Shown here: positions 4,093 through 36,163 of the stretch, in pieces
How the letters are laid out: the number at the start of each line of letters is the position of its first letter
Numbering within the stretch: position 1 is the stretch's first letter
Assembly: GCA_016937015.1 (NCBI GenBank)
Contig: JAFGWT010000524.1
Location: 1 to 36,352, forward strand
DNA: 36,352 nucleotides
Direction: 5' to 3'
From: Deltaproteobacteria bacterium
GTDB taxonomy: Bacteria; Myxococcota_A; Polyangia; JAAYKL01
The notes under the pieces: model-generated
The model's input: only the letters and a program-made list of their open reading frames with translations
Told to the model about the DNA's origin: nothing
Databases searched by the model: none
Program-made: the position numbers and the translations under genes

Positions 4093-5445
4093 CTACTCAA
4101 GGATGATTATGACCTCACAGGGGAAGTCTGCTTCAAGATGATGAGAGCCCAGCTGAATGTCGGTACATGCGCCGCCAAGCAATTCAATCTCTGAAGGGCT
4201 CTTCATGCGCCAGCCGTAATCGTCGTTGTTGAGTTCGAGCAGTTGGCCATCCAGCGCCACGGTTCCCTCGGTCTCATCTCCAGGAGCGATTCCCTTGCCA
4301 TCCAGCTCGTATACACAGCTTTGTGATTCCACAGTGATAATTTCGGTAATGGCGTCGACCAGACTGCTTTCAGTCAATCCCTGATGAAACACAGCTTTTT
4401 CGCTGCCATCAGCGGAAAGCCCAACGCCGACATTGGCGACTTTTTGCAGATAGGTGGCGGCGGCAGCATCTTCAGCGTCAACCATCCCAACAACAAACGT
4501 TGAGATACCTGCGGAATAGGCAGCTTCCACCGACGCGATGGTGGCAGCCTGAGCAGCGGGATCGTCATTCACCGCCAGATTGTCACACGTTTGCGGATCC
4601 CCATCTGTGGCCAGCAGCATCACTTTTTTACTCGGACCATCCATGGCGTTTAGTATCGCGGTTGCTTCTTCCACACCAGCCGGTACTGGTGACGCGCCTT
4701 TATACGTCTCGTCATCCGCCTTAAAAATTTCGGCGATATCGTCACCACTTTCCAGTTCGGGTGCAACAGTCTGCAGCAAGGGGCAGGTTTCGGGCTGGTT
4801 GCGTTTGGCGGTAAACAATACAATCCCAAACTTAACCGACCTTTCCAGCGACCAGACCAGACCATCTTCCGGATGGGTGGCCGTTCCCATCAGGGTCTTC
4901 ACCATCACGCTCCATCGCGTATCCGTATCGCCCATCTGCAAATCCATCGACGCGGAATGGTCGACCACCAGCATGATAGTCACGGGTTGACGATTTAAGG
5001 TTAAATCAAGGTTCGTACAGCTATCTGTTTCATTTGGTTCCGTGGTATCGGAATCTTTGCTTTGGCTCGACGTGTCTTTAGGCTTTTCTCCGGTGTCCTT
5101 ATTTCCAGTGTCCACAGGATCCGCATCGCTGTCACTGTCCGTGTCGGTATCCGTGTCGGTATCCGTGTCGGTATCCGCATCAGTATCCGTATCGGTATCT
5201 GCATCAGTATCCGTATCGGTATAAGTGTCGCCGTCCGTGTCCTTATCGGTGTCCGAATCGGTATCAGAATCCGTATCCTTATCGGTGTCCGTATCCGTGT
5301 CCGTATCCGTATCGGTATCACTTTCAGCAGCCTGCTTTTTGGATGGGTCTTCCGAGCAGCTCTGGAGACCGCCAAAGGTTGCAATTAAAATCAGAGCCAA
5401 CGTAAGAACGATAGTACTTAAAAGTGTCATCGGTTTTTCAGTCAT
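4093..5445 (-). CDS. VWA-domain lipoprotein with (D-T/S)n tether
   Basis: Signal peptide plus lipobox (GGLQSC-SED), Asp-rich repeat tether, then VWA MIDAS-like VVDHSASMD and [14 protein letters not shown] at 5445 overlaps the GH9 stop (ATGA). Confidence 0.85.
5119..5321 (-). repeat. Hexanucleotide-type repeat coding for (D-T/S/A)n tether of VWA lipoprotein
   Basis: Tandem GAY-ACN/TCN/GCN codon pairs encoding SDTDTDTD...SDSDAD. Confidence 0.95.
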
Positions 5446-8024
5446 GGTTCCACTCCCCAAATCAACTCACCGTCGCTGTACATGGTGACGTTTTCAGTTA
5501 CAACATGCAGAGAATCTTTTCCTTCTTCAAGCCCCTGAGCACTGTAGTCATTGCTGCCGTCCATATAATAGCTGGCGTTATCCGAACCAATTCTTGCCGC
5601 CTGCAGCTGGAATTCCAGCGGAATGGAACCATAGAATTTACAACCGGTAAACGCGAATTCATAGTAGTACAGGTGGTTGGCCTCATCGTAGGGTACCGGT
5701 CCTGTAACGATAGTGGGTTTGCCATCACCGGAATTGAGCATACCGTTATCGACGCTGCGGCCATCGTAGGTCAGCTGAAGTCGAATATCATCGAGGGTTT
5801 GCCCCGCCTCAATAAATTCGCTGAAATCAACGTAGTATCGGATGGACAGATTGGGATTCAAATGCGGCGGATGCACTGTTTCATTGTGCACAATCAATTT
5901 AGGCTCAGTAATCATGTCGTCATTTTGTCCCAGTCGACCTTCCACCCAGTATTCCAACTGTTCCGGTTCCAGCGGCGGGAAGTTCTCCAGTGGCGCTTCG
6001 CCGACACCTTTATCGTCCATGGCAAAATTCGCATACAACCCGGCCATCGCGGCCACCAGTGATGCAGCGTAGTCGATACATACCTCGGTGTACGCGTATT
6101 CCCAGATGTCATCCTTGTACGAGTCATCACCATCTGGGCCGCCAAGCAAAGCGCCCCAGGCCACGTGACTGGGCGTCGGTGGAATCCTAAGACTGTTGTC
6201 CTTGGTGGAGCCATGGGCCGCTCGATTATGAATATGCGTATGCCATTCATCCCCAAAGCCGACAATGTAGGATTTTCCTGTCGGATTATCGCCCCAGATA
6301 TACCTGATTTGAGTATCAGCCCAGGCGGCGTATGCCGGATTGTCAACATATTTGCCCCATGTCATGGCAGTCATTTGTGCTGCAACATTATAACGTAAGG
6401 AGCCCCAGCCAGACAGGAAGCTGAGACCGCCGGGGGTCACGCCACGATCACCATCGAGCCCGGCCCAAAGGTTAACATGATCAACTGCAATTTTGGTCCA
6501 TTTTTCGTCTCCGGTGACCTGTGCGAGTTTCAGGAACATGCCGCTCCATACCGTGTTCCAGCAGTGCGCCCAGGCATTGTACCAGCCATCCTCGGTGGAT
6601 TCCATAATTCGCCCCAGGTAGCCGGTATACTGATCGCCTTCAACGTGGGTGATGTGATCCACATACTTGTCGTCTCCCGTTGCGATGGCCAGCCATATCG
6701 CAGCCCACGCCAGGTCATCATCGTCATACTCTGAGGTGTAGTATCCGCCAGTATCAGCAACGAGATCCTTATCCGGATTTCGAACGCCCTCCCCTTCACC
6801 GTCCGCGAGGTCTTCGCTGATGTCGTTGCCGGAATACTTTCTGGCAAATTCGTACAGTGCGGTCCCATAATCGAGACACTTGTCCGCGTACTTCTCATCC
6901 AGCGGACGGAATACCATCGATGCCAGGGTCAGGGCCGCCGAAGCTGCCGATGTAACGTCTGATGCAGGATTTTCCTCTGTTGCAAAAAATGCGGGTCTGG
7001 GAAAGTCTTCCGCTTTCTGAAGTTCCGGTGGGCCCCAGAATGTATGATCTATGGACCCATTGCCCACCTGATGGCAAAATGCGATAACGCGACCATCCTC
7101 CTCGCGGAAAGTGCTTCTTAAAAAGTAATTGGTGAAACGCTTTAAAATATCGAGAGCATGAGGTGCCTGCCCGGAGGCAATGAACGCATCAGTCCATTCA
7201 TAAATCGCCCAGGCGAGCATGGATGCGGAATATGCCTGGGGCAAACCAAATTTAACGTGATCGCCGCAATCGTGAAATCCACCGCCCACATTGATGGTAC
7301 CAATGCCATCGGGGTCAAATATGTGAATGTACTTGTTGATATATTCTTCAGACATGTCAGTACAGTTACTCTCGCGGGGGACTTTGCCATTGCAAAATAG
7401 CGGCACCGCGTAGTCTGTGACTTCGGAATTGCCACGCCATTGCAGGCGGCCACCGGTAACACCAATGCCAGACATATTTACATCGAAAAAATAAAGGGAT
7501 TTCTGGAAAGATTCAGCATAGGGTCCTGGATCATTGTATTCTTCAGGAGGCGCATATGGCCCCCATATCTTCTCCATGATCTCTTCCTGGGTTGGCCCGT
7601 CGCTATCGCTGTCTGCGTCTCCGTCGCTGTCGCTGTCGGCATCTGAATCTGAATCGCTATCAGTGTCTCCATCGGCATCGCTGTCCGCATCGGAATCGGC
7701 GTCAACATCTGAGTCGGCATCGCTGTCTGCGTCGCCATCGCCATCCGAATCTCCGTCGGAATCCCCATCAGAGTCGCTATCGGCATCGCTGTCTGCATCA
7801 GAATCAGAGTCAATATCTGTGTCTGAATCGCTGTCTCCCCCTGGGCTGGAGTCCGAACCGTCCGGACCGATGTCGGATGAATCCGGGTTTGGGTCACTAC
7901 TGGTATCCGTCGGATTGTTTGAGTCCTTTGAGGAATCAACTTTGTTTCCGGGACTGTTTTCAGAACATGACATGAGCACTGCACTCAGCAGTAGAAATGC
8001 GGTAAGGTATCGTAAAAGCAACAT
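5442..8024 (-). CDS. Glycoside hydrolase family 9 (endoglucanase-like) lipoprotein with Asp-rich tether and C-terminal CBM3-like module
   Basis: [30 protein letters not shown] and [29 protein letters not shown] typical of GH9; C-terminal [12 protein letters not shown]...[12 protein letters not shown]3-like. Start [20 protein letters not shown] at 8024 has a GGGAGGG RBS; ORF-track start 8174 is probably too long. Confidence 0.88.
7599..7835 (-). repeat. Hexanucleotide-type repeat coding for (D-S/A/G)n tether of GH9 lipoprotein
   Basis: Encodes [17 protein letters not shown]...DSDSDG. Confidence 0.95.
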
Positions 8025-8289
8025 TTCTAACCCTCCCTGTGTTGGGTATGGGAATTGGTGCAAGCCACCAATTAAGTTTCTAACCAATAGTATCATTAGA
8101 TCAAATTTACAGGTGACACTTTTATTATTTGTTACATCACGCAGATAAAATACGAAAATAACTGCAGCCTTCATGTAATTTTTTTTTCAGACTACAGGAT
8201 TCAGTTCGGGGCCGATTGAGAAAACCATTCGAACAAAGACAATAAATCTCATATTATTGGCATGTTACAGGATGACAGGAGCAATCGCT

Positions 8290-9003
8290 TCATTGTAATC
8301 GGTTGACAATATCGTACCCCGCTCTGACAGACCGCAAGTAATAGCGGGCCACCAAAATATCACGTTCCGGTTCACTTAAATCGCCGCCGCCGTGTTGGCG
8401 AAGCATGGCGATGGTGATGCCGGCCGCAACCGATACGTTGAAACTTTCGACAAAGCCAAACATTGGAATCCTGAACGCGCCATCGGCACCCGCGCGCATC
8501 TGAGCCGAGATACCTTCGGCCTCGTTCCCAAAAACAAGAACAAGCGGTGTAGTAATATCAACATTGGCCACAGCCACCGCGCCATCCATCGCCGCAACAA
8601 ACACCCGCATTTGCTGATCGCGCATTTTCTCAAGAAACGATGAGGTATCGGCATATACGTGGACATCAACCCATTTATGTGCACCCTGAGTTACAGCCGC
8701 CGAGGACTTAAAGCGGGTGGCGCCTTCTATAATATGAATATTTTGAATTCCAAACGCATCCGCAGAACGGATAATCGCCGCAGTGTTGTGAGGGTCATGC
8801 ACACCTTCTATCGCCACATGCAGCATTTGGGTTCGATTGGCCACCACATTGTCAATCGTTGCACGCCGCTCATCGGTCATCATTTTTCCAAGGATTTCAC
8901 AGACACGCCGGGGATCTTTCCGAGCAAGCAGTTGCTCTTTTTCCGATTGCCGGGTGGGTGTGAACACGTCAGAGCTGATTTTTCGCCTGTATTTCACTGT
9001 CAT
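8290..9003 (-). CDS. SpoU/TrmH family RNA 2'-O-methyltransferase
   Basis: EGVHDPHNTAAIIRSADAFGIQNIHII, LVFGNEAEGIS, IPMFGFVESFNVSVAAGI (SPOUT motifs 1-3). Confidence 0.92.
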   Translation of the reverse strand: MTVKYRRKISSDVFTPTRQSEKEQLLARKDPRRVCEILGKMMTDERRATIDNVVANRTQMLHVAIEGVHDPHNTAAIIRSADAFGIQNIHIIEGATRFKSSAAVTQGAHKWVDVHVYADTSSFLEKMRDQQMRVFVAAMDGAVAVANVDITTPLVLVFGNEAEGISAQMRAGADGAFRIPMFGFVESFNVSVAAGITIAMLRQHGGGDLSEPERDILVARYYLRSVRAGYDIVNRLQ

Positions 9004-9171
9004 GGGCGAGAGATTACTCAGCAGAAAAAAAAAATCCAGCGTTAAACGTCCCGATTGGTGCCCCTGATTTAAACAGCATACAGCGCTTGCAGAATGAGAC
9101 TCATGATATTTCGAGCATTTAAAAAGATTTGAAATTGAAGTTGGTTTTTACCGGGGCAATGGAGGGAGGCA

Positions 9172-11364
9172 TTAATAGAGAATGGGTTCCACTATTTCGC
9201 CATTTGCCTGTCCCTGAACGTTTTCGTAGGTTCCAAGGAACTGAGACGTCAGGTCCAGCCAAAGCGCTATGCGATGCAGTTCCTCCTCGCTCAGATCGAC
9301 GCCATTGTGTCCGGATGTGACAAGCGGGTACAGCTTGGACTGACGCGCGCCGACACGCCCCGGAATGGAACGCGGATAACCGTAAAATTCCGGACCGTCT
9401 CCACCATCCTTCGTGCAATACGCCCTGTTGATTTCGGGCACGAAATTGCGGTCGTCATATCCGAATGCATACCCACCTTCGTACAGATTTGTATAGGATT
9501 CGTAGAAACGTGTATCCCACGCCTGCCCGTCTCCAAGACTGAACGCCTGGTTGCCATTGTGACAGCGAACGCAGTTGGCTTCGAGTACAGGCTGCACCAG
9601 CCTGGGATAACTGAATGGCTTCGCGCCAGGTACTGTTTCCGGTTCAATGGTCGATGGCGCACGCATCAGTGCTTTGGGATAGGCCTTGGGTATCGGCGGC
9701 GCAGTGTGACGCGATTCATGGCATCCCTGACAGGTCAGATGGCTGTTGCCGTACGGCACATACGTTTCAGATCGCATGGACTGATAGGCCAGACCGTTCT
9801 CATCCAACGCCTGAAAGTACACCGGAATATCATAGGGCAAATAGAAATAGGCGCTGCCGTCGTCTTCAACCGGTACTGTCCCCAGCACCTGTCGTGTATT
9901 CCGGTTGATAAAATAAGAGACCCGCGGGTTGGCGTTGTTGGGCGTTGTTTTAGGGAGAACCTGAACAATCCGAAGCTGCTTAATTTTCACGTTTTCGTCA
10001 AACGGAATCAGACTGTCGTAAACGTTCATAACAGATACCGTCGCGTTATCGGCGAAGGATGCGGGCATCGGATCGAAGTACAGACCTGTGACAGGAACGG
10101 GTTTGGGCCGCGCCTTTATCGGTATGGGATCCAGCACCGACAGATTGTTGTCTCTGAAGATTTCCTGTTTATTCCCCCAGCGGTCTATTACATAAACGCC
10201 ATAGTGAAGCCCAAGGATATTAAATTCGTTGTAATCAGGCTCGTGGGCCACCAGAAACAGATTTTCATTCAGCGCCCACGGTGTGGCGTAGTACTGCTCG
10301 GCGTTCATTCCCACGGTCGACTCGGGAAATCCGGCGTCTTTGGTAATAACCTCAATGGGCCCCATGCCGTCGTCATCCTCTATATTCGGGTCGACTGTTA
10401 TGATGGAACCAAAACTCTGTGAATGGTGTCCCATCGCAATGCCAACGTATTTATCCGAACCGGGAATAGCTCGCAGCTCCGCGATCATTCTCGGGAGACG
10501 CCATTCATCGTTGGGGTAATTCAGATTGATCGCCCGGGCATCGACGCCATCAGGGGTGGTGATCCATGGACTGTGCATTTGATTTTCACCACGGTCGATG
10601 TAATCCCACCGCGTATAGATTATCATGCCATTGTTGTCCACCGAGGGGTGCCACTCGTTGGTTTCGTGCCAGCTGATGGTCCGGATGTTGCTGCCATCGG
10701 CGTTCATGATATGAAGCGTGTACGTGGGTACGGGGCGCGGATGGCAACGACCGTAACCACCTCGGCGGTCGGATATAAACACAATGCGTCCATCCGGCAG
10801 CCATACGGGGTCAAAATCATTGTTTTTACCGTCTGTGAGCTGCGTCAACCCAGTGCCATCGATATTGACCTTAAAAATGTGAAATGTATTGGTTTCGTTC
10901 CATACCTGAGTAAAGCCCCCACGCTCGGTCCATGCAAACAGAATCTCTTTACCGTCGTAACTCAGATCCGGTGACAGAAAACCACCGTAGTCCAGCTTTC
11001 TTCCTGCGAACCGACCATTTTCGACAGTGGAATTTTCAAGCACATTCCGTACCGTTGGATTTCCGGAAAACGCATTTTGAAGAATAAACAAACCACCTTC
11101 GCTGGCGTTAAAGCCATGGTACTGGTCACACATATGGCCACCGGCGCCGTGATTATTGACCGCGTTCAGGAACGGGCGGCTGACAAAGAGGATATCATCA
11201 AAATCAAATGCAGGGTCATTGAGGTCAATCTGAGCCATCGACCGGCTGCTGAAAGACAGAATGCCTGCGCCCAAAACAACCGCCAAAATAAAAGTCATAT
11301 GATTTACGAAGTGTTTACCAGTCATCATTTCCATATTTCCATTTTTGAATGTCTTCATAGCCAT
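9172..11364 (-). CDS. Exported c-type heme protein with TolB/PD40-like propeller, hydrazine synthase alpha-subunit-like family
   Basis: CDQYHGFNASEGGLFILQNAFSGNP, FLSPDLSYDGKEILFAWTE, FDPVWLPDGRIVFISDRRGGYGRC, HEWHPSVDNNGMIIYTRWDY-type blocks; two CxxCH motifs (CQGCH, CVRCH); N-terminal signal sequence. Confidence 0.8.
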   Translation of the reverse strand: MAMKTFKNGNMEMMTGKHFVNHMTFILAVVLGAGILSFSSRSMAQIDLNDPAFDFDDILFVSRPFLNAVNNHGAGGHMCDQYHGFNASEGGLFILQNAFSGNPTVRNVLENSTVENGRFAGRKLDYGGFLSPDLSYDGKEILFAWTERGGFTQVWNETNTFHIFKVNIDGTGLTQLTDGKNNDFDPVWLPDGRIVFISDRRGGYGRCHPRPVPTYTLHIMNADGSNIRTISWHETNEWHPSVDNNGMIIYTRWDYIDRGENQMHSPWITTPDGVDARAINLNYPNDEWRLPRMIAELRAIPGSDKYVGIAMGHHSQSFGSIITVDPNIEDDDGMGPIEVITKDAGFPESTVGMNAEQYYATPWALNENLFLVAHEPDYNEFNILGLHYGVYVIDRWGNKQEIFRDNNLSVLDPIPIKARPKPVPVTGLYFDPMPASFADNATVSVMNVYDSLIPFDENVKIKQLRIVQVLPKTTPNNANPRVSYFINRNTRQVLGTVPVEDDGSAYFYLPYDIPVYFQALDENGLAYQSMRSETYVPYGNSHLTCQGCHESRHTAPPIPKAYPKALMRAPSTIEPETVPGAKPFSYPRLVQPVLEANCVRCHNGNQAFSLGDGQAWDTRFYESYTNLYEGGYAFGYDDRNFVPEINRAYCTKDGGDGPEFYGYPRSIPGRVGARQSKLYPLVTSGHNGVDLSEEELHRIALWLDLTSQFLGTYENVQGQANGEIVEPILY

Positions 11365-11368
11365 CACC

Positions 11369-13600
11369 TCACTCCTTCATATCCCGGTAGTCCAGTTCCA
11401 GCATATAGGCCTCCAGCTGGTGCAGTTGCTCGTCGGTCAACTGCGTTGTAACGCCATGGAGGTCGCTGGTGTTGTGGGTCGTCAGGACATCCATCAGTGT
11501 GGCGGCCGAACCATCGTGCATGTAGGGAGCAGTGCTCCACATGCCAATGACTGTGGGCGTGTCAAAAGCGTCTTTTTTATCCATGTCGACTTTAGAGCCA
11601 ACATTATAGGTTTGAAGATCCGTGAATGCCACGCCATTGTGGCACTTCGAGCATTCAGCCTCTCCTTCGAAAAGCTTTTTGCCGGCCTGCGCGGCCGCAG
11701 AAAACTGATTTCCCTTGCGATACGGGCTTCGTTCAACCTGTTTGGCATCGAGATATGCGCGAATTTCCGACAGCTGTGATGCGGAGGGCTCAACGAATTT
11801 GATATAGCGGAAGCCGGCCGCAATGGACGCGTCCACATTGGGCCTCGCGCCAGTGGCGATCATCGGTGGGGTTATTGGCGAATAGATGAGCGATTTGGTG
11901 TTTTTTGAATTGCCCATACCGTCATTCAGAAGATCCCAGTTCAACGCATCGGCGCGGCCGCTGGGGTGACAAGTAACACAGCTGAGCCAACTCTGCAGTG
12001 TGCTGGTGGCATCGTGAAACAGCTCCTCTCCGCGACGGAATGCATCCATTTCGGGAGTTTCGCCAACTGACACCACCTCTTCCACCTGGCTGTTTTCAGT
12101 ATTGATCATCATCACTGCCGAGTCGAAATATGCCCCAACCGCAAGCTGGCTGCCATCGGGAGAGATGTCGATGCCACGGGGGCCATCGTGATCTGTCTCA
12201 ATAATTTTTAATACACCGCCGGTCCACAGCGCGCCAAGGTCGTCCTGCAACAATGAAATCTTTGACGGATCCTCCGCAATTTTCAGCCATACATCGGAGT
12301 AAGGTCTGTCGAAATTGCGTTTGTCTCTGGCATATGGGTTAAAGCGTGCCCCTCTGCCGGCGCCTTCAGTCAGAAGTACATGCAATCGGTCCAAATCAAC
12401 CTGAATTACCTGTCTGGTACCGGCAATGCTGACCCAAAGACGATCACTTTCAGGAGAGATGGCTATGCCCCATGGGTCCGCGGCGCCATGCATCAGTCGG
12501 TCGAGCAGCACAGTGGTATAGCGGGTTTTGGTGGTCAGGTTGATAATCGACAGAGCGTTGGTATTAACCCAGCCTTTGGTAATCTGGGTAGTAGGCAGGG
12601 TTACACGGCCAAGAGTATGCACAGCGTAGGCATACTGACCATCCGGCGCACAGCGAATCTGCTGCAGATTGCTGGAACCAAACGGCAGTGCAATTTCCTC
12701 TGAAACACTCTCCGTGCCCAAATCAATGACAGTAATTGTTGATGCCATGCCGTATTGGGATGCATCTCCCGTTGGCAGATGATGACCCACCAGCGCCGAT
12801 GTGCCATCGGGGGTGATGTCGACAAAGTTTGGATAATTTTTTACCGGGATGGTTGCCGTCACATCGCCCAGAGCAATCTCAACAATTACTACCTTGCCTA
12901 ATCCGTATTCAGCGACCACTGCCGTATCTCCGTCAATTGCGATGCCCATCGGTTTGGATCCAACCGATACCCGCTGGGACACGCTGCAGTCTGTGGCGCT
13001 GATTTGGGCGATACTGCCATTGTCATATTCCGATACCCAGACGCTGGCATCGTTTTGCCAGGCCACCCCCTTACCGTAGCCTTCCAGCTCGATGGTACAG
13101 ACCACCATGTCGGTCAGTGCGTCAAGAATATAAAGCGCGCCTTTGGTTGCGTCTGAAATCGCGATCATTTCACCGTTGGGTGAGAAGGAAACGTCGAATG
13201 GAGATCGATATTCAGAAAACTCAATAGGCAAATCCCCATCAGCGTCTGTGTCCGTATCGGTATCTGCGTCAGAGTCGGCATCGGTATCTGCATCAGCATC
13301 GGTATCGGTATCCGCGTCAGTGTCAGCATCCGTATCCGCATCGGTATCGGAATCCGCGTCCGAATCGGAATCGGCATCCGTATCAGCATCGGTATCGGAA
13401 TCCGCGTCCGAGTCAGAGTCCGCATCTGTATCTGAATCAGTGTCGGCATCCGTATCCCCATCGGTATCGGAATCCGCGTCCGAATCGGACGGCAGGGAGT
13501 CGGATCCGCTGTCGTCGCTTTTAGTGTCTTCCGAACAGCCCGATATTGCTGCCAGGAACACGATAGCCATGAGCGAAATGAGTTGGTTTCGAAGCATCAT
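11369..13600 (-). CDS. Lipoprotein with Asp-rich tether, YVTN-type beta-propeller and C-terminal di-heme (MauG/cytochrome c peroxidase-like) domain
   Basis: Lipobox AAISGC-SED; DxDxD tether; propeller repeats ([44 protein letters not shown]); CVTCH and [32 protein letters not shown] typical of MauG/CCP family. AAGGAAGG RBS before ATG 13600/13597. Confidence 0.85.
13232..13489 (-). repeat. Hexanucleotide-type repeat coding for (D-S/T/A)n tether of propeller/MauG lipoprotein
   Basis: Encodes [15 protein letters not shown]...DTDADGD. Confidence 0.95.
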
Positions 13601-13795
13601 GAAAGTGGCCTTCCTTGTATTAAAAGTTAAAAAAATGAATTGCCGCAACTTTTGATTATTGGTGTATTTAATGTTCAAAAAAAGGGTGGCTGAGCGAGGC
13701 AGTCTTTTGATTTAAACTGTAAACCACATGAATTTGTCGCTTGATGACCTGTAAACCTGTTGGTTCATCGGCGTGAAAGGGTTAGACTGCCTTCC

Positions 13796-17520: not shown

Positions 17521-18204
17521 CTACTGATTCATGCAATATTCGAGACAGCTGGCCTGGGCTGCAGGATCCTTCTGATGCGGGGCGCAAATCGTCTCACACT
17601 GGGCTTGTCGCTCCGCTTTCTGTTTCAGATAGAGGGCCTGCTGGGTTGACAAATCATCGGGCGGAATGGATGCCGTTATGCCGCCAATCTGCCCCGAAGA
17701 GGTCAAATTGATAATCGAGCCGGCAGGATACCAGTTTCCGGCCACTTCTCTTTGACTTCCCAGCCGAACCTGTGACAACTTTGGTGACTCAGTCAGATTC
17801 CCGATGAAAAATGCGCCGTCTCCCGCAAAAACTTCAATGTTGCTGATGACGGCAGCATCACCCAGGTTTACTTTACCGTTCCATACAAATTTTCGTTTCT
17901 GTTGAACCAGCTCTATTTCCGATGCGGCCGGGAGGGGAATAGAACCAATATAGATGGTTTCAGAAGGAAATACACTGCAGCTCGTTTTACTGGTTTGCCT
18001 CATAATTGATCCGGCTGGCAGCGACAAACCGGATACTGAAACGGCTTGGGTCAACCGAATCGCGACCGGCTGTCCGGCCAATTCCTCCATTGTTGAGCGG
18101 CTGGACTCTGGAATGGATTGAATCGGGGTGGTCCGACATCCGGAAAGTATTGTGATGAGTACCAAAAGAGAGAAAGAAGAAAATACGAATCTCGCGCAAT
18201 ACAT
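17521..18204 (-). CDS. Putative lipoprotein of unknown function with C-terminal twin CX3C motif
   Basis: SLLVLITILSGC lipobox; C-terminus QCETICAPHQKDPAAQASCLEYCMNQ. Confidence 0.7.
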   Translation of the reverse strand: MYCARFVFSSFSLLVLITILSGCRTTPIQSIPESSRSTMEELAGQPVAIRLTQAVSVSGLSLPAGSIMRQTSKTSCSVFPSETIYIGSIPLPAASEIELVQQKRKFVWNGKVNLGDAAVISNIEVFAGDGAFFIGNLTESPKLSQVRLGSQREVAGNWYPAGSIINLTSSGQIGGITASIPPDDLSTQQALYLKQKAERQAQCETICAPHQKDPAAQASCLEYCMNQ

Positions 18205-23684: not shown

Positions 23685-24776
23685 ATGAAAACCTTATATA
23701 GTTGTGTTGCCGCAATTTTTGTCATCTCAGCAGTCGCGTCGCAGGCGAAGGCCGAGCCGTGTCAATTGAGCGATGAATGCGATGCAGGTGAATTCTGTGT
23801 CAATCTCGAATGCGCTGTGCCAAATGCGAAAATATCGGAGTGTGGGGATTCTTTGGATTGCGACCACATGTTCACATGTATCAGCGGCATATGCAAACCG
23901 GATGGGGTTTACTGTGAAACGGTCACCGGCTGGGAGGTAATCTGGGCAACGGGGAGTTCACTGACGTGCATGGATGGAATGGGAACCGGAAGTGCCAGCA
24001 CCTCAGTCGGCACGGATATGGACTGCAGCGGTGAGTGCGATCCAGCCACATCGGTGGATTTACCCAATATCGAAGTTGCCGATCTTCAGGAACAGTGTCT
24101 CACGGAGGTTGAGCATACTTGTGGCAGCGAGATTCCTGTACCGCAGGAGGTGTGCGCGCCTGATGCGCTTAAAATCTGTACCGACTGGCTCATGCTCGCA
24201 GCTGAAATTGCGGCCAATTGCGAAGACGAATTTAGCAATTCGACCTCTGGGAATGAGGAGACACCCATTGGCGACGGCGGAGATATGGGTTGGGAAACAG
24301 ATACAGACATGGTCGTTGAAGAGGACATGGGCGGTGGAGCGTCCGGAAAAGGAACTGCCGTTGCGGGAATCATATCAATGCGAGGTCTGGAATCCACGGT
24401 TAGTCCGTGGGCTTTGGTCGACTGCTGCGACGGGCTCGCGGATGAAGACGCCGCCGTTATCACGGGATTTGTCGATTGTATAAATGAAACGTCAACCAGC
24501 GACTGTGACGCAATCTGGGCCTGCTACGAGGAAAACTCGGAAAATTTAGACAACATTTTTGGGGGGTATGAAACCGAAAAAGGTATGGATGGAGGCGAAG
24601 CAAACGGAGACGTAGACAACACCTCTGCGCCCCGAGACGAAGATGTTGTTGTGGCAGGCGATGGTCAGGCCGCTGACGATGCGGATGGCGCCACAGACGG
24701 TGGCAGTTCGGACAGCGGCTGCACATTCGTCAGCCCCGGAGCATTGGGCACCTCCCTCCTGTCAATCCTCCTTTAA
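23685..24776 (+). CDS. Secreted Cys-rich protein of unknown function with C-terminal Gly-Cys plus hydrophobic tail
   Basis: Signal peptide MKTLYSCVAAIFVISAVASQAKA; many Cys; C-terminus SSDSGCTFVSPGALGTSLLSILL. Confidence 0.7.
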   Translation: MKTLYSCVAAIFVISAVASQAKAEPCQLSDECDAGEFCVNLECAVPNAKISECGDSLDCDHMFTCISGICKPDGVYCETVTGWEVIWATGSSLTCMDGMGTGSASTSVGTDMDCSGECDPATSVDLPNIEVADLQEQCLTEVEHTCGSEIPVPQEVCAPDALKICTDWLMLAAEIAANCEDEFSNSTSGNEETPIGDGGDMGWETDTDMVVEEDMGGGASGKGTAVAGIISMRGLESTVSPWALVDCCDGLADEDAAVITGFVDCINETSTSDCDAIWACYEENSENLDNIFGGYETEKGMDGGEANGDVDNTSAPRDEDVVVAGDGQAADDADGATDGGSSDSGCTFVSPGALGTSLLSILL

Positions 24777-25564: not shown

Positions 25565-26152
25565 TCACTGGATAGGATTTCCATCGTCATCCACGAGCGC
25601 GCCCTCTTCCAGAACAAACTCAATATTGCCCTGTTTGAGACGAAAATCCACGCGGCGGTTTTTCGCATTCACCACGTCGCCACTGCCATCCGCCATGGGG
25701 TTCTCTTCGCCAAAAGACGCGATTGCGAGTCGGCTCTCATCAACGCCCAGATTCGACAGATACTTTACGACGGTCTGTGCCCGCCGCTCAGCCAGAGACA
25801 TATTATATTCGTTTGTCCCCCGTGAATCGGTATGTCCTTCGACGGCCAGGGTAATGTCCGTCATCTCTTTTAGCCGGTTAGACGCATCCACCAGCGCTGC
25901 TTTGGCCGGTTCGGTCAGAGTTGATGCGTCCAGCGGAAAGTGGACGCGCTGCAGCACCAGCAGCAGTTCCTTTAATTCTCCTTCGGCGGCCTGAATTGAC
26001 GGCGACGCCACGGCTGCATCATTTCCGCCATTGCCATCGCTTTGGGGCGTTACCGTAATGGCATCATCGGCACTGGCCACATTGGTCTGTTTTTTGTTAC
26101 AACCTGACGCGGATATCGCCGCACATAACACGATAAAAAAAATCCTTTTCAT
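25565..26152 (-). CDS. OmpA/Pal-like peptidoglycan-associated lipoprotein
   Basis: Lipobox AAISASGC; OmpA C-like VEGHTDSRGTNEYNMSLAERRAQTVVKYLSNLGVDESRLAIASFGEENP...NRRVDF. Confidence 0.92.
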   Translation of the reverse strand: MKRIFFIVLCAAISASGCNKKQTNVASADDAITVTPQSDGNGGNDAAVASPSIQAAEGELKELLLVLQRVHFPLDASTLTEPAKAALVDASNRLKEMTDITLAVEGHTDSRGTNEYNMSLAERRAQTVVKYLSNLGVDESRLAIASFGEENPMADGSGDVVNAKNRRVDFRLKQGNIEFVLEEGALVDDDGNPIQ

Positions 26153-34315: not shown

Positions 34316-35140
34316 CTAGATGAGGCTTAACGCCATGGACGGGATTTGGTTGGCCTGCGCCATAACCGCTGTACCCGCCTGCATCAGAATCTGTGACCGG
34401 GTCATGCTGACCGATTCTTCCGCCACATCCACGTCTCTGATTCGGCTGTTGGATGCGGACAGGTTCTCGCGTGTGGTTGCAAGGTTGCGCACCGTGCTCG
34501 CAAGTCTGTTCTGGACCGCACCGAGTTTACCGCGCTGCTCCGACAGGGAAGTGATTGCATCATCAATTGTGCCAAGTGCCGTTCTGGCGCCGGAAGCGGT
34601 TGAGATACTGGCGGAAGCCACATTTAATCCGCTCGCTTCGGTGGTTACCTTGGTGAGCTCAACCGTGATCTGGCTGTTGGTATCATTGGCATGACCAACC
34701 TGCAGGGTGACGGAGGTCGCACCATTGAGCAGGTTTGTTCCGTTGAATTCGGTTGAATTGGCGATTCGATCGATTTCAGAAGTCAGTTGTTCAAATTCGT
34801 TGTTCAAAAATCCTTTCTGGTCTGAATCGGTGGTGCCGTTGGCGGCCTGAACAGCCAGCTCGCGCATACGAATCAACATGCCGCTGATTTCGTCCATGGC
34901 GCCTTCTGCGGTCTGCACCAGCGAAATACCATCGTTCGCGTTGCGTTCCGCCTGGCCCAGTCCGCGAATCTGCGCTTTCATTTTTTCGCTGATGGCCAGA
35001 CCGGCGGCGTCGTCTTTCGCAGCGGTAATCCGCTGACCGGAGGACAGGCGGGCCATGCTGGTCGAAAGAGAGGAGCTCGTGTTGTTCAGGTTCCGTTGGG
35101 CATTGATTGCCATTGTGTTGGTGTTAATTACCATTCCCAT
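34316..35140 (-). CDS. fliC: Flagellin (short, D0/D1 type), paralog 1
   Basis: [52 protein letters not shown] and C-terminal [56 protein letters not shown]. Confidence 0.97.
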
Positions 35141-35167
35141 AATGTTTCTCCTTACATGGAACCGGGA

Positions 35168-35207
35168 CCGACAACAGCGTCGGCGATCCGGGGAGCATTC
35201 GTGCTCC
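35168..35207 (-). promoter_or_regulatory. Two-hairpin 5' leader of flagellin paralog 1
   Basis: GGAGCA-TTCG-TGCTCC (35192-35207) and CCGAC-AACAGC-GTCGG (35168-35183), perfect inverted repeats upstream of RBS. Confidence 0.55.
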
Positions 35208-35329
35208 GTTTATGGTTGCGTTTTCAAAGTTTCCCACCGTGGCGACCGGTCAAACATGTGACCCGGTGAGTCCCTCTGGTTATTATGAAAAACGAGAGGG
35301 GTCATGACTCCCCGCCCGCGTTTTCACCC

Positions 35330-36163
35330 TTATCCGATCAAAGACAGCGCCATGCTCGGTATTTGGTTGGCCTGCGCCAACACCGACGAGCCGGCCTGCA
35401 TCAATATCTGTGATCGCGTCATGGCCACTGATTCATCCGCCACATCCACGTCTCTGATTCGGCTGTTGGATGCAGACAGATTTTCCCTTGTGGTGGCCAG
35501 GTTGCGTACTGTACTCGAAAGCCGATTCTGAAGCGCACCCAGCTTGCCTCGCTGCTCTGACAGATTGGTAATGGCCGTGTCAATGCCGCCAATGGCGGAC
35601 AATGCGCTGCTGGCGGTGGCAATGCTCGCACTTGAGAGATTTCCCATATAGCTGGTATCCGCAGACACATCTTTAAACTGAACGCTCATCTGATCGATAT
35701 TGGCACTTGTGCCAATGCCAACCTGCAGCACAATTGATGTGTCCCCATTGAGCAGTGACGCGCTGTTAAATGAAGTGGCGTCGGCAATACGGGTAATTTC
35801 AGTTGCCAGCTGTGTGAACTCAGTATTGAGGAACCCTTTTTGGTTGGAATCAGTTGTGCCGTTGGCGGCCTGAATGGCCAGTTCGCGCATACGAATGAGC
35901 ATACTTGAAATTTCGTCCATCGCGCCTTCTGCGGTTTGTACGAGGGAGATGCCATCGTTGGCGTTTCGTTCAGCCTGTCCCAGACCACGAATCTGCGCTT
36001 TCAATTTTTCGCTAATGGCCAAACCGGCCGCGTCATCTTTCGCCGCGGTAATGCGTTTACCAGATGACAGACGTGCCATGCTGGTAGACAGAGATGCGGT
36101 TGTGTTGGATAGGTTTCGCTGTGCGTTGATTGCCATTACATTGGTGTTGATTACCATTCCCAT
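35330..36163 (-). CDS. fliC: Flagellin (short, D0/D1 type), paralog 2
   Basis: Near-identical N and C termini to paralog 1, divergent centre. Confidence 0.97.
   Translation of the reverse strand: MGMVINTNVMAINAQRNLSNTTASLSTSMARLSSGKRITAAKDDAAGLAISEKLKAQIRGLGQAERNANDGISLVQTAEGAMDEISSMLIRMRELAIQAANGTTDSNQKGFLNTEFTQLATEITRIADATSFNSASLLNGDTSIVLQVGIGTSANIDQMSVQFKDVSADTSYMGNLSSASIATASSALSAIGGIDTAITNLSEQRGKLGALQNRLSSTVRNLATTRENLSASNSRIRDVDVADESVAMTRSQILMQAGSSVLAQANQIPSMALSLIG

Follow-up and report, generated by a model that had tools for sequence, protein, structure and literature searches.

Outside the Bacteroidota and the Neisseria-type (Slam) systems, it is still unclear how Gram-negative bacteria select the lipoproteins that they display on the outside. 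The present locus raises it: three exported proteins of an uncultured Myxococcota bacterium carry, shortly after a lipobox Cys, a long alternation of Asp with another residue (Asp-X tract), and the initial annotation took this tract together with a Cys-Ser-Glu-Asp/Asn start (CSE[DN]) as a mark of outer-surface delivery. The window, i.e., the whole stretch of 36,352 nucleotides analysed, is contig C310 of a metagenome-assembled genome (G000; 6.43 Mb in 564 contigs), whose relatives carry names such as 'Deltaproteobacteria' or Myxococcota MAGs. Here we propose that the tract is probably a disordered polyanionic stalk for surface display, which would lie between a lipidated Cys and an extracellular domain in about 300 exported proteins.

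Asp-X tracts in the window

Translation confirmed the CSE[DN] start and the following Asp-X alternation on all three lipoproteins (VWA-like, GH9 and propeller/di-heme), which are encoded on the minus strand and have 66 to 86 residues of strict alternation. The features are as follows.

4093–5445, minus strand: gene of the VWA-like lipoprotein (reading frame open to 5460; likely ATG at 5445 or 5430)
5356–5358, minus strand: lipobox Cys codon of the VWA-like protein (C-SED), from the translation
5116–5319, minus strand: Asp-X tract of the VWA-like protein, 32 + 34 residues with a two-residue break (sub-runs from the translation: 5224–5319, 32 residues; 5116–5217, 34 residues)
5442–8024, minus strand: GH9 cellulase lipoprotein with a CBM3-like domain (reading frame open to 8174; likely ATG at 8024)
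7965–7967, minus strand: lipobox Cys codon of the GH9 protein (C-SEN), from the translation
7596–7835, minus strand: Asp-X tract of the GH9 protein, 80 residues
9172–11367, minus strand: hydrazine-synthase alpha-like partner gene, without lipobox and without tract (PF18582; PDB 5c2v_A)
11369–13600, minus strand: hydrazine-synthase beta-gamma-like propeller/di-heme lipoprotein (likely ATG at 13600 or 13597; range to 13678)
13535–13537, minus strand: lipobox Cys codon of the propeller/di-heme protein (C-SED), from the translation
13229–13486, minus strand: Asp-X tract of the propeller/di-heme protein, 86 residues

The GH9 protein matches PF00759 (E = 1.7e-110) and PF00942 (E = 1.8e-5). The VWA-like protein is homologous to another tract-bearing (tether) lipoprotein of G000, and a VWA_2 domain was found once among the tether lipoproteins in the Pfam scan. 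The other lipoproteins named in the window (OmpA at 25568, the protein at 17524, and the Tpx-like, PHP and 1298-aa proteins) were checked and none has a tract, as had been noted initially.

Genome-wide distribution and protein-level constraint of the tract

A DNA pattern for eight Asp residues gave 6,794 overlapping matches in G000 and 6 for the reversed control, so that the Asp-X pattern is not due to chance. With a tract defined as at least five Asp-X pairs, 72 genes (73 ORFs in a first, ungreedy scan) were found in a sample of 1.30 Mb of the 6.43-Mb genome, for which the contigs were partly picked for tether content. By a rule-based scan, not SignalP, 62 of the 72 tether ORFs have the signal peptide and, upstream of the tract, the lipobox-like Cys of a bacterial lipoprotein. 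In these 62 lipoproteins the tract starts at a median of 16 residues past the acylated Cys, and the longest Asp-X run has a median of 64 residues. Extrapolation to the genome gave from ~267 (by tract windows) to 317 proteins (by contigs chosen regardless of tethers). The Asp-X tract is a genome-wide feature of about 270–320 proteins. Of 284 genomes sampled across the phylum, 90 had a longer Asp-X pattern; its abundance is very high in the family of the window (f1) and in f26, f35, f40, f43 and f62, and most families are without it. We found no description of an Asp-X tract beside an anchor Cys as a flag of surface display in the literature searched. Such a tract would provide a simple sequence flag for surface-displayed carbohydrate enzymes in uncultured Myxococcota.

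Asp is encoded in the tracts by 1262 GAT and 1192 GAC codons, and all six Ser codons occur. Neighbouring identical dipeptides shared the same hexamer in 220 of 1189 cases, compared with a mean of 203 and a maximum of 233 when the codons were shuffled within tracts. The codon usage and the shuffling rule out slippage of DNA repeats as the origin of the tract, and the alternation is thus held at the protein level. The X residue is Ser > Thr > Ala > Gly in order of frequency, and an ortholog of the hydrazine-synthase-like protein from the same genus (L052) has Gly at nearly every X position. Since X varies between orthologs, Asp at every second position is the conserved element.

Residues following the acylated Cys

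The 62 tether lipoproteins were set against 69 lipoproteins without a tether (non-tether set) from the same genome sample. CSE[DN] was found in 5 of 62 and 0 of 69, respectively, and the five include the three window proteins, so that only 2 of 59 tether lipoproteins outside the window have it. With stricter filtering and the window left out, the counts were 2 of 54 with the tract versus 0 of 67 without it (p = 0.2). Moreover, orthologs do not keep the motif: those of the window GH9 protein begin with CSEN, CEGD, CSDD, CSDD and CEKN, and that of the hydrazine-synthase-like protein begins with CSKD. Thus CSE[DN] is rejected as a common signal, and its sharing by the three window proteins is a local coincidence.

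The initial annotation likened the motif to the acidic lipoprotein export signal of Bacteroidota, which is likewise proposed to lie just past the acylated Cys (PMC5080379). The idea that CSE[DN] and the tract form a composite signal of this kind accounts for the three of three tether lipoproteins of the window and for the shorter motif CSE, found in 9 of 62 proteins with the tether and 0 of 69 without it. However, the acidic enrichment of the Bacteroidota signal does not appear here: acidic residues at +2 to +8 average 1.42 with the tether and 1.52 without it (p = 0.7), and two or more of them at +2 to +6 occur in 18 of 62 and 20 of 69 proteins. An acidic export signal was rejected because the acidic count does not differ between the two sets. 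In addition, some tracts have no N-terminal lipobox anywhere near them. The composite signal is largely refuted by these computations and we regard it as highly improbable.

On the other hand, the two sets are separated by a start that is rich in Ser/Gly and poor in basic residues, without extra acidic residues. With the window excluded, Ser/Gly/Thr/Asn at +2 to +8 average 3.73 in the tether set versus 2.33 in the non-tether set (p = 1.5e-6), Lys/Arg average 0.41 versus 0.88 (p = 5e-4), and Ser or Gly stands at +2 in 39 of 54 versus 23 of 67 proteins (p = 5e-5). This enrichment is a property of the sets and is confounded by linker composition, disordered linkers being rich in Ser/Gly anyway, and the start may be just the beginning of the disordered linker.

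Cargo of tether and non-tether lipoproteins

When the lipoproteins were split by the tether, a GH or PL domain was found in about 20 of 62 with it and in at least 1 of 69 without it (Fisher's exact test, p = 9e-7), where domains were counted per family, so that a protein with two catalytic domains could count twice, and the non-tether value is a lower bound, as weaker families may be hidden behind the 25 listed. By Pfam, the GH cargo of the tether set comprises GH9 (three), GH8, GH45 and GH12 (two each), and GH5, GH11, GH26, GH30, GH2, GH54, GH127 and a GH catalytic core family (one each); the PL cargo comprises PL14 and two pectate lyases. GDSL, CE4-type and other esterases, CBM4/6/13 and PA14 were also found. 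The non-tether cargo consists of OmpA (five), TPR, BamB-like/PQQ, HEAT, DegP-like trypsin with PDZ, SLT, periplasmic binding protein, FKBP, beta-lactamase and one GH9 without a tract. All-against-all BLAST between the two sets gave only one homologous pair.

The tract is tied to extracellular cargo, mainly polysaccharide-degrading enzymes. An equally frequent tether on periplasmic cargo, which would have spoken against an outward role, was not seen; OmpA, BamB-like, SLT and DegP-like proteins are all in the non-tether set. Of the marker proposed initially for outer-surface delivery, the tether holds, in that it tracks extracellular-type cargo, and CSE[DN] does not, as it is not general. Because one genome has dozens of lipoproteins with and without the tether, and GH9 paralogs of both kinds, the sorting rule is directly testable.

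In a GH9 tree of 52 rows, the tether is clustered by groups of orthologs (9 changes versus 16.2 when shuffled, with none of 500 shuffles as low) and has been repeatedly gained or lost; one row scored as untethered (L203) is truncated at the 5' side. Untethered sister proteins often bear other polar linkers, and GH9 orthologs swap the tract for such linkers of varying length, as is expected if the tract is a spacer.

C-terminal tracts and Cys tags

Some proteins without a lipobox have the Asp-X tract at the C-terminal side, followed by a short tag with a MYXO-CTERM-like Cys motif (GGCGC, GSCGC or GGCSC). They include a GH9, M6 metalloproteases and a beta-glucanase-like protein, and end with the tract, [SGD]C[GS]C and a tail of ~20 residues ending in LL. 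Orthologs of the C-tagged GH9 with a C-terminal tract were found in two genomes of the same genus (G001 and G002), the G001 row being without the tag. Among five C-termini with [GS]C[GSTAN]C, four stand directly after an Asp-X tract. Thus the tract sits between the predicted anchoring Cys and the enzyme in either polarity. No other argument speaks as strongly for a spacer between anchor and cargo and against an N-terminal export signal.

In Myxococcus, the MYXO-CTERM tag has a Cys predicted to be lipidated, is cleaved by myxosortase, and its transport is assigned to the type II secretion system (T2SS) (PMC11980579). The C-tagged set is similar in the Cys motif (GCGC) at the C-terminus after a disordered region and in that a myxosortase-core protein is encoded (L279; NF040914 Mrt_core, 123.1 bits, above the cut-off of 100), though the individual Mrt subtype models all scored below their cut-offs on L279. 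It differs in that the tags are short, in G000 with a truncated look, and that neither the transmembrane helix nor the Arg-rich end of MYXO-CTERM was found in the C-terminal tags, the tails being without an Arg cluster; in addition, the main topology here is N-terminal. TIGR03901, the model for canonical tags, had no match in G000 and 0–3 across 14 genomes of its family, whereas the median for other families of the class is 21 (p = 3e-6, which represents one evolutionary event). Loss of MYXO-CTERM as a general cause of tether expansion was rejected, as other tether-rich families keep 8–51 canonical tags (median 22 versus 13 in tether-poor genomes, p = 0.11); the two are therefore not linked by a general rule.

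The window also encodes, at 23685–24776 on the plus strand, a Cys-rich exported protein of 363 aa with the end DSGCTFVSPGALGTSLLSILL; its size and ending resemble the short C-terminal Cys tags, and it has no NCBIfam match. Two other proteins of the genome have unusual arrangements. In L035 (8261–10036, minus strand), a lipobox, Asp-X tracts and YGMPxDT repeats follow a radical SAM/SPASM-like ORF in the same reading frame; this is possibly a self-modifying surface lipoprotein or a fused pair of maturase and substrate. L148 (7652–10012, minus strand) is a beta-propeller-looking repeat protein with several Asp-X tracts inserted inside, so that the tract is not always beside an anchor.

These tracts inside L148, together with the use of other polar linkers by orthologs, would suit a generic interdomain or solubility linker without any role in display, whose link to enzymes reflects the modular nature of polysaccharide enzymes, and acidic and Ser-rich linkers are indeed common in modular CAZymes (PMC2386152). 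However, the tract is proximal to the anchor in both polarities instead of lying between catalytic and binding modules, and few other lipoproteins of this genome carry it. We consider a generic linker unlikely and prefer the display stalk. In Saccharophagus degradans, 31 of 34 lipobox proteins are carbohydrases, polyserine and Glu-Pro-rich linkers are used, and some acidic linkers directly follow the lipobox, as in LPB/EPR(47)/GH10 (PMC2386152). The present system differs in having Asp-X in place of poly-Ser or Glu-Pro, hundreds of proteins in place of 34, and also C-terminal tags and stalks that contain a six-Cys module.

Six-Cys module in the stalk

This module of 33 residues, with the consensus CPGTCVAQGECRNLNGTYLPDYTCPTETPICC, lies within the Asp-X stalks. 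It had 32 matches in G000, four in one genome of the same genus and one each in two genomes of the same family, and is almost confined to the source species. Examples in G000 are L151 (6646–7995), L104 (17833–19704) and L282. An Asp-X tract lies upstream of it in all 27 bearers recovered and on both sides in 25, and it is present in N-anchored and C-tagged stalk proteins alike. The module had no sequence match in PDB, and no Pfam family covered it at 1e-3 in the bearers scanned. Its Cys spacing recalls that of eukaryotic CLIP domains. As a guess, its role may be docking or glycan binding. If so, hundreds of stalked enzymes could be organised or clustered in a membrane-borne, cellulosome-like array with the module as the docking or substrate-binding element, but we hold this to be rather doubtful. 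One protein, L288, has two six-Cys units and no recognisable enzyme.

Possible display mechanism and export route

From the layout, the genome-wide spread, the protein-level constraint, the association with cargo and the two polarities, all read from sequence, we infer lipidation, surface location, a T2SS route and a spacing function for the stalk proteins. In the usual layout, a signal peptide would be followed by the lipidated Cys, ~16 Ser/Gly-rich and base-poor residues, ~30–130 Asp-X residues and the enzyme, the Asp-X stretch being split in some proteins by the six-Cys module; a minority would have the mirror layout of enzyme, tract and short MYXO-CTERM-like Cys tag. The tract would act as a spacer, interchangeable between orthologs, and the sorting information would most likely be carried by the folded domain together with the Ser/Gly-rich residues that follow the Cys (or with the C-terminal tag). 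A charged chain extends by ~0.3 nm per residue, so that 64 residues would give the stalk a reach of ~20 nm, enough to clear a surface layer.

The most likely carrier to the surface would be the T2SS. GspD was detected in all 14 genomes searched, and its model TIGR02517 scored over the cut-off in 13 of the 14 and in G000. In A. baumannii, GspN is needed for T2SS transport of lipoproteins. Unlike that system, GspN (PF01203) was not found in any of 29 genomes, where the positive controls gave matches, and GspN-dependent export was rejected on this ground. Lipoproteins that depend on the T2SS in A. baumannii have P2'–P8' segments rich in Gly/Ser or in Asn/Asp, and the start of Pal gave no support to surface localisation in Acinetobacter (PMC12802150). 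The start of the tether set resembles the Gly/Ser-rich class of these surface lipoproteins; likeness to PulA and InvL extends to the Gly/Ser-rich residues after the Cys, the polysaccharide-degrading cargo (PulA) and the presence of GspD.

In the staphylococcal Clf/Sdr proteins, too, a long, strict Asp-X stretch (mostly D-S) links the functional domain to its surface anchor. On the Asp-X proteins, the NCBIfam models for Sdr/Clf (MSCRAMM) matched the repeat only (31–114 bits versus cut-offs of 999–2500), and neither a whole-protein family score nor an LPXTG anchor was found. In contrast to Clf/Sdr, the present proteins belong to a Gram-negative, are anchored by an N-terminal lipid or a C-terminal Cys tag, carry enzymes rather than adhesins, and use X in the order given above. 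The likeness is presumably convergent. Staphylococcal SD repeats are glycosylated, and the extreme Asp density and the Thr/Ser alternation, which resemble them, would also suit a polyanionic coat (matrix) component, binding Ca2+ or other cations or glycosylated, that carries the enzymes. We regard a coat component as very unlikely, and keep to the display stalk.

Hydrazine-synthase-like pair and flagellin-like genes

The adjacent alpha-like (9172–11367) and beta-gamma-fusion-like (11369–13678) genes on the minus strand are kept as a pair in G002. The beta-gamma-like protein matches chains B and C of PDB 5c2v (E of about 2e-21) and NCBIfam NF052342 at 130.5 bits, below the cut-off of 1250. Its alpha-like partner scores 66.2 bits for PF18582 (cut-off 26.6) and matches 5c2v_A with E = 3.8e-12. 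The equivalog scores of hydrazine synthase were not reached by the gene pair (130 bits versus 1250 and 50.9 versus 800). In the alignment with 5c2v, gamma-His144 is replaced by Ala and gamma-Cys165 falls in a gap (the numbering offset was worked out here); since these key residues of the gamma subunit are apparently not conserved, hydrazine synthesis is unlikely. Judging from the tract, the beta-gamma-like part would sit on a surface stalk. A published account of hydrazine-synthase homologs in bacteria other than the anammox group names Planctomycetota and Desulfobacterota and does not refer to Myxococcota (PMC12758564).

Finally, a tandem pair of flagellin-like genes (products of 274 and 277 aa) at 34316–36163 of the window, on the minus strand, suggests that the source organism is flagellated, unlike Myxococcus.
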